Source of the DNA: a virus
Virus record (IMG/VR): IMGVR_UViG_3300030098_002229
Location: 1-23,415 of that record
Length of the DNA stretch: 23,415 nucleotides
Strand: one strand, 5' to 3'
A model generated the notes under the pieces. That model was not told the origin of the DNA. It made no database searches and saw only the letters and a list, made by a program, of their open reading frames with translations. The position numbers and the translations under genes are program-made. Below are positions 4,735 to 19,211 of the stretch, one piece after another; positions within the stretch are counted from its first letter, which is position 1; each line of letters starts with the position of its first letter.

Positions 4735-5226
4735 GTGGCTGAATTACTAGACCCAAATGATATATTTTTTACGCCGTTTGAACCGAAAACAAAAAATCGT
4801 TTCGTTATGTATATTGGCGATATACCCGCATACTTAGTTAAAACTATGAACAGACCGAGTATAACATTTGAAGAAGTTGAAATAAACCATATAAATGTTA
4901 AAAGATATGTTAAAGGTAAAGGAGCTTGGAATACTTTAGAAGTGACTTTATATGACCCAATCGTTCCGAGTGGAGCACAAGCAGTTATGGAGTGGGTTAG
5001 ATTACACCACGAATCCGTAACAGGTCGTGACGGATATTCAGACTTCTATAAAAAAGACATTACATTTAATGTATTAGGGCCGGTCGGTGATAAGGTTGAA
5101 GAGTGGGTATTGAAAGGTGCTATGATTCAAGAAGCAAATTTCAATGATTTAGACTACGCAAACGGAACAGATGTAGTTGACATTACTTTAACACTAAGAT
5201 ACGACTACGCAATACTACAATTCTAA
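4735..5226 (+). CDS. gp19: Tail tube protein (T4 gp19-like)
   Basis: 163 residues, the same length as T4 gp19. It starts with GTG at 4735 after ATAGGAG. Recognisable tube-family stretches are PKTKNRFVMYIGDIPAYLVKT (shortened here to its key part, NRFVMYIG), the central LEVTLYDPIVPSGAQAVMEW, and the C-terminal VDITLTLRYDYAILQ. These build the beta-sandwich that stacks as hexameric rings inside the sheath and forms the DNA channel. It is the first gene of the tail operon and follows a candidate late promoter. The next gene begins 10 bases after the stop, so the two should be cotranscribed. Confidence 0.93.
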   Translation: MAELLDPNDIFFTPFEPKTKNRFVMYIGDIPAYLVKTMNRPSITFEEVEINHINVKRYVKGKGAWNTLEVTLYDPIVPSGAQAVMEWVRLHHESVTGRDGYSDFYKKDITFNVLGPVGDKVEEWVLKGAMIQEANFNDLDYANGTDVVDITLTLRYDYAILQF

Positions 5227-17019: not shown

Positions 17020-17426
17020 TGAGAACTCAATTACTATGCACCTTCACTCGTAAGTCAAAGTTAAACGAAATCGTAGACATTATAGTTTCGTGTAATGATA
17101 TTTTGTATGACAAGATTTATGTATTTGAAAACAAAGATGATTCCAACCAATTGATTTGCACTTATAATGTAGAATTCATTGAGGACTTTGAAGAAAACAT
17201 AATAGATACAATTTCACTACATAGAAAGAAACAATCCAATACATTGTATACAATCAATGCATTGAATGAAGTTATCAGAGAAAAGAACGGAGGCGTGTTA
17301 GATAAATCCTATATGGTTGATTGGGATGAATTTGAAAACACATTGTTATTAACGAACGAGTCCGGTCTGACAAAAATACCTACCAAGATACATCAAATCA
17401 TAGATGTTACGACTTGGAAAAATTAA
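17019..17426 (+). CDS. Conserved-looking hypothetical protein
   Basis: 135 residues. The ATG overlaps the last base of the previous stop (TAATG), and GGTGGG lies at a good distance upstream. The sequence begins MRTQLLCTFTRKSKLNEIVD and alternates short strands and helices (KIYVFENKDD, QLICTYNVEF, TLYTINALNEVIREKNGG), so a small mixed alpha/beta fold is likely. There are three cysteines and no membrane segment. I have the impression of similar proteins in other large aquatic phages but cannot name a family. It ends the cassette that starts with the polymerase-like gene; the host-type promoter of the first structured RNA begins ten bases after its stop. Confidence 0.75.
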   Translation: MRTQLLCTFTRKSKLNEIVDIIVSCNDILYDKIYVFENKDDSNQLICTYNVEFIEDFEENIIDTISLHRKKQSNTLYTINALNEVIREKNGGVLDKSYMVDWDEFENTLLLTNESGLTKIPTKIHQIIDVTTWKN

Positions 17427-17435
17427 AAAAAAAGC

Positions 17436-17464
17436 TTGACATTTACAAATATTATCACTATATT
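17436..17464 (+). promoter_or_regulatory. Host sigma70-type promoter for structured RNA 1
   Basis: TTGACA (17436-17441), 17-base spacer, TATATT (17459-17464), with start expected near 17471. The surrounding bases (A-run, AAGC, TTTACAAATA in the spacer, TAGTGTAA after the -10) are nearly the same as in the minus-strand promoter at 4585-4613. Confidence 0.88.
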
Positions 17465-17470
17465 ATAGTG

Positions 17471-17801
17471 TAAGTTATTTGATAATTAGGTAGTAAATTC
17501 ATCACGAAAATCTTATCGTGTCTCGTAGAGGCGATGATATCGGCGGTAAGACAGGTGGTTAGGTAAACAAACAAACAGAATCACTTTGGAAACATTGTGT
17601 GGTTTGTTCCGATATGCCGGAAGCACAAACATCAGATTAGATACTGGTCTTGGAAACTTGACTTGGAGTCTGGTGGCGAAAAACAATAGTCTGGGTGTCA
17701 AGGGGTGATGAGAGAACGCGAAGATTCGGTTTAGATGAAAAGGTTCGTATTTACTACCTTTGTTAAAAAAAAATAAAAAAAAATCTCATTTTGAGATTTT
17801 T
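17471..17801 (+). ncRNA. Structured non-coding RNA 1 (unidentified class)
   Basis: No credible reading frame is present. A perfect 11-bp helix AGGTAGTAAAT (17488-17498) / ATTTACTACCT (17749-17759) closes a domain of ~270 bases. Inside are CACGA/TCGTG (17503-17507/17516-17520), ATATCGG/CCGATAT (17537-17543/17609-17615) stacked on AACAAAC/GTTTGTT (17570-17576/17602-17608), CATCA/TGATG (17630-17634/17706-17710), and CTTGAC/GTCAAG (17657-17662/17697-17702). The motif TTGGAAAC occurs twice, at 17587 and 17650. By hand count 104 of 240 bases (17521-17760) are G or C, while the 60 bases before (17401-17460) have 14. It has its own strong promoter and a terminator, so it is most likely a separate, early-expressed RNA. 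It is not a tRNA, tmRNA, RNase P RNA or group I intron by the landmarks I know. Confidence 0.8.
17779..17801 (+). terminator. Terminator of RNA 1
   Basis: AAAAATCTCA (17779-17788) / TGAGATTTTT (17792-17801), a perfect 10-bp stem with a three-base loop, ending in a T run. The stem is AT-rich but long, and an A-rich stretch precedes it. Confidence 0.75.
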
Positions 17802-17811
17802 GTTTAATATA

Positions 17812-17819
17812 TATAAATA
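17812..17819 (+). promoter_or_regulatory. T4-type late promoter box upstream of RNA 2
   Basis: TATAAATA is an exact match to the T4 late promoter -10 sequence, with no -35 box, as is normal for that class. It lies just after the RNA 1 terminator and ~33 bases before the closing helix of RNA 2. A short AT-rich match can occur by chance. Confidence 0.45.
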
Positions 17820-17824
17820 TACTA

Positions 17825-18338
17825 AGTAGTTTAGTATTAGTTTTTTGACAATTTGGAATTTGGAAAAGTAGAAAGAGTAATTAACTTTCTATGGGATTGG
17901 CAGAATAATGGGTAGACATTTGAAGCCCATAACGCAATCTAAGACAAAGTTGTGGTGACTTGATAGTTGGAAAATATTTTAACTATCTATATTGACAAAT
18001 ATTGTCTAATGTATTTCCGTAAAAAAGATAAGATGATTCTTATGACTCTATTGTAGGTAAGGGTAACACTGAAGTCCTACTATTATGACCGAACAATCTA
18101 AACTTGGAGAGATAAGGTATTTACATAGAAGTTGTATTCACATCAATGAGGAATAACCACCTTGAGATGAACTATCGTAACTGATAGATGTAAAGTTTAG
18201 AGTATGAAAAATCCAAGCCGGAAATTGTGAGTAATCATTAGTCTCACATCCCCAATAGAATTCCAAAGATTTTAAAAGCCCCAGCGATTTTTAGTTTCCA
18301 CCTTTTATACAGACTTAAAAACAATGGGGCTTTTTTTT
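17825..18338 (+). ncRNA. Structured non-coding RNA 2 (unidentified class)
   Basis: About 500 bases without a credible gene. TTTGGAATT (17852-17860) pairs with AATTCCAAA (18259-18267) to close the domain. Inside, in order: TAGAAAG/CTTTCTA (17869-17875/17885-17891); GGATTG/CAATCT (17894-17899/17935-17940) enclosing ATGGGT/GCCCAT (17908-17913/17925-17930); GATAGTT/AACTATC (17962-17968/17981-17987); GACAA/TTGTC (17994-17998/18002-18006); ATAAGA/TCTTAT near 18029-18044; GTAGG/CCTAC near 18053-18080; CTAAACTT/AAGTTTAG near 18098-18201, enclosing TTACAT/ATGTAA and CTATC/GATAG; and TGTGAG/CTCACA near 18226-18247. A multi-branched RNA is the simplest reading. A large terminator follows. The 5' end is estimated from the upstream late-type box. 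The SSB gene starts 115 bases after the RNA ends. Confidence 0.78.
18274..18338 (+). terminator. Terminator of RNA 2
   Basis: AAAAGCCCCA (18274-18283) pairs perfectly with TGGGGCTTTT (18325-18334), followed by a run of eight T (18331-18338). The 41-base loop can fold further (TTTTTAGT with ACTTAAAAA, one bulge). Confidence 0.85.
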
Positions 18339-18356
18339 ACCAAAACGCAAAAAAAA

Positions 18357-18394
18357 TTACATTTTTACAATTATATATTATACTTATTAATGTA
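18357..18394 (+). promoter_or_regulatory. Probable promoter of the SSB-UvsX block
   Basis: TTACAT (18357-18362), 16-base spacer, TATACT (18379-18384) resembles a host promoter; the spacer holds TTTACAA as in the two strong promoters. It overlaps ATACTTATTAATGTA (18380-18394), one base different from the motif before the tail-tube gene. The SSB start is 58 bases downstream. Confidence 0.5.
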
Positions 18395-18452
18395 TCAAGG
18401 TTATACTTGATTAATAAATGACAAATGAAAAATAAAAATAGGAGAATGAAAA

Positions 18453-19211
18453 ATGGACTTAAATGCAATTCGCAAACGTCTCGGTCAATTACAGACCACA
18501 AACAATCGCACATCAAGTTTATGGAAACCACAACCAGGTAAAACCCAAATTCGTATCGTGCCTTACGCATTCAATAAAGATAATCCTTTTATTGAATTAT
18601 TCTTTCACTACAATCTGAACAATCGTTCTTATTTATCACCAATCAGTTTTGGTCGTCCAGACCCAATTGAAGAGTTCGCACAGAAACTCAAAGCAAGTGG
18701 TAATAAAGAAGATTATCAATTGTCTAAGAAATTGGAAGCAAAGATGAGAACCTTTGCACCAGTTATCGTTAGAGGTGAGGAATCACAAGGTGTTAAATTT
18801 TGGGGATTTGGTAAAACGGTTTATCAAGAACTACTATCAATCATAGCTGACCCTGATTATGGTGACATAACAGACCCAGTTAATGGTCGTGATGTATCGG
18901 TTGAATTCATTTCAGCAGAGGAAAGTGGTGCAAGTTTCCCTAAAACAAACATTAGAGTGAAACCTAATCAAACACCAATTTCTGATGAACCATCAGTCTT
19001 AGAGTTAGTTAAAACTTCTCAAAAGGACATTACTGAAATTTATCAAGAGCAGTCTTATGACGACTTAACCAATGTTTTAAACGAGTGGTTAAATCCAAGT
19101 GAGGACTCAACAGAAGAGGAAGTTAAACAAGAAAGTGTTTCAACTTCTGATTTAGGAACTTCTAAAGTAAAAGACACTTCAGAAGCTTTTGATGAATTAT
19201 TCAATTCGTAA
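18453..19211 (+). CDS. gp32: Single-stranded DNA binding protein (T4 gp32-like)
   Basis: 252 residues with GGAG eight bases before the ATG; an earlier ATG at 18446 is out of frame and too close to that site. The N-terminus MDLNAIRKRLGQLQTTNNR is the basic cooperativity arm of gp32-type proteins, followed by SSLWKPQPGKTQIRIVPY, the usual start of the OB-fold core. Residues ~100-170 (FAPVIVRGEESQGVKFWGFG, then DITDPVNGRDVSVEF) continue the core. The last ~45 residues are Ser/Glu/Asp-rich (EDSTEEEVKQES to EAFDELFNS), the acidic tail that recruits replication proteins. The protein has no cysteine, so the zinc site of T4 gp32 is absent. It lies before UvsX, in line with a recombination/replication block. 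Confidence 0.88.
   Translation: MDLNAIRKRLGQLQTTNNRTSSLWKPQPGKTQIRIVPYAFNKDNPFIELFFHYNLNNRSYLSPISFGRPDPIEEFAQKLKASGNKEDYQLSKKLEAKMRTFAPVIVRGEESQGVKFWGFGKTVYQELLSIIADPDYGDITDPVNGRDVSVEFISAEESGASFPKTNIRVKPNQTPISDEPSVLELVKTSQKDITEIYQEQSYDDLTNVLNEWLNPSEDSTEEEVKQESVSTSDLGTSKVKDTSEAFDELFNS

Follow-up and report, generated by a model that had tools for sequence, protein, structure and literature searches.

Gene setting and identity of the RNA

The window analysed here is the whole 23,415-nt stretch of the IMG/VR virus record IMGVR_UViG_3300030098_002229. The left part of this 23.4-kb record encodes a tail-fibre-type chaperone domain and the tail sheath, tail tube and baseplate proteins, and the right part encodes gp32 (18453-19211), UvsX, a nuclease and a DnaB-like helicase. 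Judged by its sequence, the phage is T4-like and far from isolates; the closest matches of its UvsX and gp32 proteins are 54% and 50% identical, respectively, both in a Microcystis phage. Region 17825-18338, which lies 5' of gp32, has no blastn match among isolated phages, and the only three binned contigs belong to unrelated taxa and indicate no host.

Sequence comparison shows that the structured RNA at 17825-18338, ~500 nt long, is genuine and strongly conserved; its manA fold carries a second manA copy nested inside one of its arms. An earlier note on this DNA had placed two adjacent unidentified RNAs in front of the SSB gene. The site 5' of gp32 is as described, but this RNA does not count as unidentified, as Rfam matches a single family above its threshold, manA (RF01745), at 18052-18252 with 56.5 bits against a cut-off of 55.2 (E 3.4e-12). 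A second, weaker full-length manA match is found at 17870-18023 (25.9 bits, E 2e-4). There are two matches because a second manA core (core B) sits in the P4 arm of a complete manA scaffold, whose own core we call core A; since core B is nested inside P4 and precedes P5, the best match is a composite of core B and the P5 of the scaffold. The manA cut-off is also passed by 15 of 49 related records, core A scores 38-45 bits in relatives, and both cores are reported as full-length manA matches in some of them. Folding energy alone is not significant for this RNA (MFE z = -1.70, with 6 of 100 shuffles equally stable).

The other RNA, at 17470-17770, has no Rfam match. Twenty loci conserve it at ~78-96% identity, the 3' domain being variable. 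It has a promoter (TTGACA-17-TATATT) at 17436-17464 and folds unusually stably (z -3.24).

GOLLD, ROOL and HEARO, the families named for checking at the outset, are large multi-branched RNAs, some of them phage-linked. A search of the window at the gathering score and another of 17400-18470 at E values up to 10 matched none of them. The nested RNA is like them in being large and multi-branched, but no architecture in common with them was recognised.

Conservation and covariation among relatives

A gp32-based scan of IMG/VR yielded 80 loci. The RNA is present 5' of gp32 in 32 of the 36 closest ones (L002-L037); of the other four, three begin at or close to gp32, so that only L028 truly lacks it. 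In the remaining 44 loci, where gp32 is 69-77% identical, blastn finds the RNA in three. Identity is ~70-93% over ~500 nt in some 30 gp32-selected loci. Two pattern scans added many copies, giving at least 83 distinct copies among the matches listed. The carriers are many uncultured marine T4-like phages, and the usual site is just 5' of gp32.

We aligned 51 diverse copies (mean pairwise identity ~72%) and drew up from this same alignment a structure of 105 pairs including two pseudoknots. Over these 105 pairs and 51 sequences, standard pairs occupy 93.5% of the cells compared with 78.8% after shuffling, and 68 of the 105 pairs show changes on both sides. The covariation score is 0.466 against 0.190 for shuffled alignments and 0.072-0.109 when the partners are slid, comparisons that are somewhat flattering because the shuffles ignore relatedness and the structure was derived from the same sequences. 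Nevertheless, the size of the gap and the replacement of whole helices leave little doubt about the fold; in P4, for example, ATTTCCG/CGGAAAT is exchanged for ACTTGAAG/CTTCAAGT. The fold, the nesting, both pseudoknots and the terminator are all shown by comparison of the relatives. Conserved pairing, the lack of which the earlier note had named as grounds for giving up its structured RNA, is thus present in the relatives, and their covarying fold supports its claim of a large multi-branched RNA with a terminator of its own.

Architecture of the nested RNA

All features described here are on the plus strand. The whole structure is closed by helix P0, whose arms TTTGGAATT (17852-17860) and AATTCCAAA (18259-18267) are present just as the earlier note had claimed; double changes occur in five of its nine pairs, and 75% of the cells are paired, the 3' strand slipping in the alignment. 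Perfect helices of 5-9 bp, too, number at least eight (13 have 5 bp or more), but they are not all in nested order, since two conserved pseudoknots cross them.

Core A (17868-18007), recognised by its RF01745 match and by covariation, consists of P1A (17868-17892), the pseudoknot 5' strand GGGAU (GGGAT in the DNA, 17893-17897), a two-base-pair P2A with an inner hairpin (17900-17935), and P3A (17942-18007) with three hairpins, the first of which has a GUGGUG loop. The P1, P2 and P3 hairpins of core A, all three features of manA, show covariation. Helix P4 (ATTTCCG/CGGAAAT, 18013-18019 with 18219-18225) follows, with double changes in five of seven pairs and 96.6% of cells paired. It encloses a spacer hairpin between the cores (18028-18043; 71% paired, variable in length) and core B, which is closed by ACTCTA/TAGAGT (18045-18050 with 18198-18203) and likewise supported by an Rfam match and covariation. 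Core B is complete, with its own P1B, P2B and P3B, and fills the place of the small hairpin in the classical P4. Downstream of P4 stands the P5 hairpin (18227-18247, 100% paired), and the pseudoknot 3' strand begins right behind it, an order that the classical manA of cyanophage sequences shows as well.

Two pseudoknots tie these parts together. The manA pseudoknot GGGAU/AUCCC (17893-17897 with 18248-18252) spans core B, is paired in 100% of the cells, and in five sequences has A-U in place of G-C, both strands having changed together. The second one, CUUGGA/UCCAAG (18103-18108 with 18212-18217), pairs the inner loop of P2B with the strand that precedes P4; it is also paired in 100% of the cells and shows double changes in three of its six pairs. 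A further pairing, between the GUGGUG loop and CCAC in the terminator loop, was rejected by inspection, as relatives such as L063 and L299 keep GUGGUG without CCAC.

We regard core A as the outer scaffold on the basis of topology, pseudoknot position and covariation. At the level of sequence, core B is nearer to classical manA: a sequence-only profile of eight cyanophage manA RNAs gave weak partial matches to core A plus P5 with core B cut out (best E 0.08), and better ones to core B plus P5 (E to 1.9e-7). Accordingly, naming one the scaffold and the other the insert fixes no direction of duplication.

Signals of a probable transcription unit

Upstream of the RNA lies a putative promoter, an A/T-rich region (17791-17819) with a TTTTGRGA-like box followed by TATATATAAATA. 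It contains the octamer TATAAATA at 17812-17819, which had been read as a T4-type late box. The octamer is indeed there, but it is not conserved: among the 62 distinct upstream regions of the copies listed, TATATAT is found in 58 and TTTTGRGM in 33, and NATAAATA in only 17. As it is missing in most relatives, a T4 late promoter was ruled out as the conserved driver, and the proposed late expression is not supported.

The putative promoter is followed by a 5' hairpin (ATACTAA/TTAGTAT, 17818-17837), the arms of which change together to form other perfect stems in relatives, the real stems being longer than shuffled ones. Immediately behind it is the conserved leader AGTTTTTTGACAA (17839-17851), which is shared with the first RNA, at 17470-17770, and with further small RNA-like units of these phages; the form AGUUUUUUGACAA also opens these, there directly behind a TTGACA/TATATT promoter. 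The common leader AGUUWUUUGAYAAUU occurs in the window at 17473-17486 and 17839-17852 and also in L128, L186, L210, L231 and L235, where it starts RNA-like units that are otherwise different, mostly directly behind a sigma-70-type promoter.

At the 3' end, the claimed strong terminator is borne out by a hairpin with arms AAAGCCCC and GGGGCTTT (18275-18282 and 18326-18333) and a T run, together covering 18275-18338. Its loop GATTTTTAGTTTCCAC...ACTTAAAAACA is conserved, and its stem is swapped for different complementary stems across relatives, and the nested RNA has its own covarying terminator. In 63 of 67 loci a terminator-like hairpin separates the RNA from gp32. The terminator stem forms together with P0 in the predicted ensemble (pairing probability 0.87-1.00), and there is therefore no sign of a terminator/antiterminator switch.

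Comparison with classical manA and other known RNAs

The manA RNA is known only from comparative work. Weinberg et al. (2010, PMC2864571) rated it a riboswitch candidate, and it has been an orphan among these ever since; Rfam 14 brought a correction of its alignment (PMC7779021). The openly accessible text of the literature on RF01745 yielded no description of a nested, tandem or stand-alone manA.

The likeness of the nested RNA to manA extends to the P1 hairpin, the 5-bp pseudoknot, the 2-bp P2 with its GAAUAA/UAA internal loop and inner hairpin, the three-hairpin P3 with the GUGGUG loop, and P4 and P5 followed at once by the pseudoknot 3' strand, as well as to the carriers, T4-like marine phages in which the RNA is often 5' of gp32. 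The consensus manA pseudoknot GGGaG/CuCCC joins the 3' side of P1 to the 3' side of P5, and GGGAU/AUCCC occupies the same two places. However, the nested RNA is ~500 nt long compared with ~190 nt, and it adds an outer closing helix (P0), a second pseudoknot within core B and a terminator of its own. The interior of P4 holds a small inner hairpin in classical manA and a complete second core in the nested RNA.

For comparison, a motif scan of marine viral contigs gave 102 distinct classical manA loci. All of them are short and un-nested, with no nested form among them, and the pseudoknot strands are 150-179 nt apart in 102 of 102, against 355 nt here (17893 to 18248). Since its P4 interior is a second core and its strands span 355 nt, the nested RNA is a manA variant rather than a typical member. 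A single classical manA was found in each of eight cyanophage genomes that were searched from end to end. The commonest neighbour of the classical RNAs is cyanophage gp32, directly downstream of 25 of the 102 (the gp32-linked loci include L317, L319, L325, L393 and L394); others are transaldolase, Hsp20-like and ThyX-like genes, names that were assigned by eye. In nearly all of ~40 classical upstream regions, a TTGACA/TATAAT-type promoter ends a few bases before P1, so that classical manA is probably the 5' end of a transcript. As these RNAs are located right behind a sigma-70-type promoter and ~50 nt before a gene, the manA family as a whole looks like a set of 5' leaders.

Two copies of one aptamer-like core in a single RNA are familiar from tandem riboswitches, for example those for glycine. 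There the second copy is placed after the first, whereas in the nested RNA it is inside an arm of the first.

Genomic context and possible roles

We counted gene contexts wherever a locus had 1 kb or more of sequence upstream, in a set chosen partly by RNA patterns. In this set the RNA is directly 5' of gp32 in 48 of 51 loci where gp32 is at least 80% identical, in 20 of 63 at 60-80%, and in none of 8 below that. As to the 5'-UTR location of manA, the nested RNA is mostly found before gp32 with a terminator in between, and it has other neighbours in several relatives: in L280 and L305 it lies behind an SMC-like recombination gene, and small ORFs follow downstream after ~1 kb of other sequence, and in L238, L266, L298 and L302 it precedes other ORFs.

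Because the RNA has its own terminator and occurs beside other genes too, we consider an autonomous phage RNA more likely than a switch for gp32. The balance tips slightly towards a transcription unit of its own with a doubled manA core, serving as a folded RNA in replication rather than as the switch of a single gene. Transcription would start from the A/T-rich promoter just upstream and run through the 5' hairpin and the common leader, and the intrinsic terminator would end the ~500-nt RNA before the next gene, giving a separate transcript. In this RNA the scaffold pseudoknot closes over the insert in P4, which contains the second pseudoknot, and the doubled core would be the functional part, binding a ligand, a protein or the transcription or translation machinery during genome replication. 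The main rival is a cis-acting leader that senses a metabolite or a protein, for instance gp32, and controls terminator read-through or the polymerase entering the gp32-uvsX genes, in which case it may resemble a tandem riboswitch or a polymerase-modifying leader. The location directly 5' of gp32 in most relatives speaks against autonomy in that it would also suit such a cis role, and so do the gp32 genes directly downstream of the 25 classical manA RNAs, the start of classical manA within a few nucleotides of a sigma-70-type promoter, that is, at an mRNA 5' end, and the rating of manA as a likely riboswitch (Weinberg et al. 2010, PMC2864571). Yet the terminator and the RNA fold neither overlap nor compete, the RNA is kept beside other genes, most close relatives have a promoter-like box and a 5' hairpin that belong to gp32 itself, and the next gene in L302 appears to own a TTGACA/TATATT promoter. 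We therefore consider the cis-acting leader a serious explanation with the smaller chance of being right.

Two other roles have far less in their favour. A 3'-end or mRNA-stability element, which would protect or process transcripts from upstream genes with the terminator hairpin as its active part, would fit L028, where the hairpin with its conserved loop is kept before gp32 without the rest of the RNA; but such an element would have no use for the many conserved unpaired bases, and the RNA has an A/T-rich element upstream, a 5' hairpin and a leader, all conserved and all its own, so this role is improbable. The least probable of all is the structural or packaged virion RNA suggested in the earlier note, to which only the size and ornate fold point, while the late box is not conserved and there is no similarity to GOLLD, ROOL or HEARO.

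Returning to the autonomous RNA, we propose, with slightly less than even confidence, that it represents the first stand-alone, double-core manA, a discrete RNA of widespread marine T4-like phages that acts in trans during replication, in a class linked to gp32 both here and in cyanophages. The nested form suggests that manA may be something other than a simple cis switch. This double-core RNA, complete with both pseudoknots and a terminator, recurs in many diverse sequences and thereby shows which parts of the manA fold are indispensable; it is also a well-defined object for probing, cryo-EM and the pull-down of ligands or proteins. Because gp32 recurs as a neighbour, in 25 of 102 classical and most nested RNAs, the search for a function narrows to phage DNA replication or its regulation.

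In L028, the terminator hairpin with the conserved loop TTTTAGTATCCACCT is at ~4810-4880, 5' of gp32. In L280 (9980-10560), L313 and L276, the nested RNA is followed by a long stretch that is non-coding and contains conserved segments such as AGGAGTCCGCGAGAGGACA; this stretch is possibly a further structured RNA.
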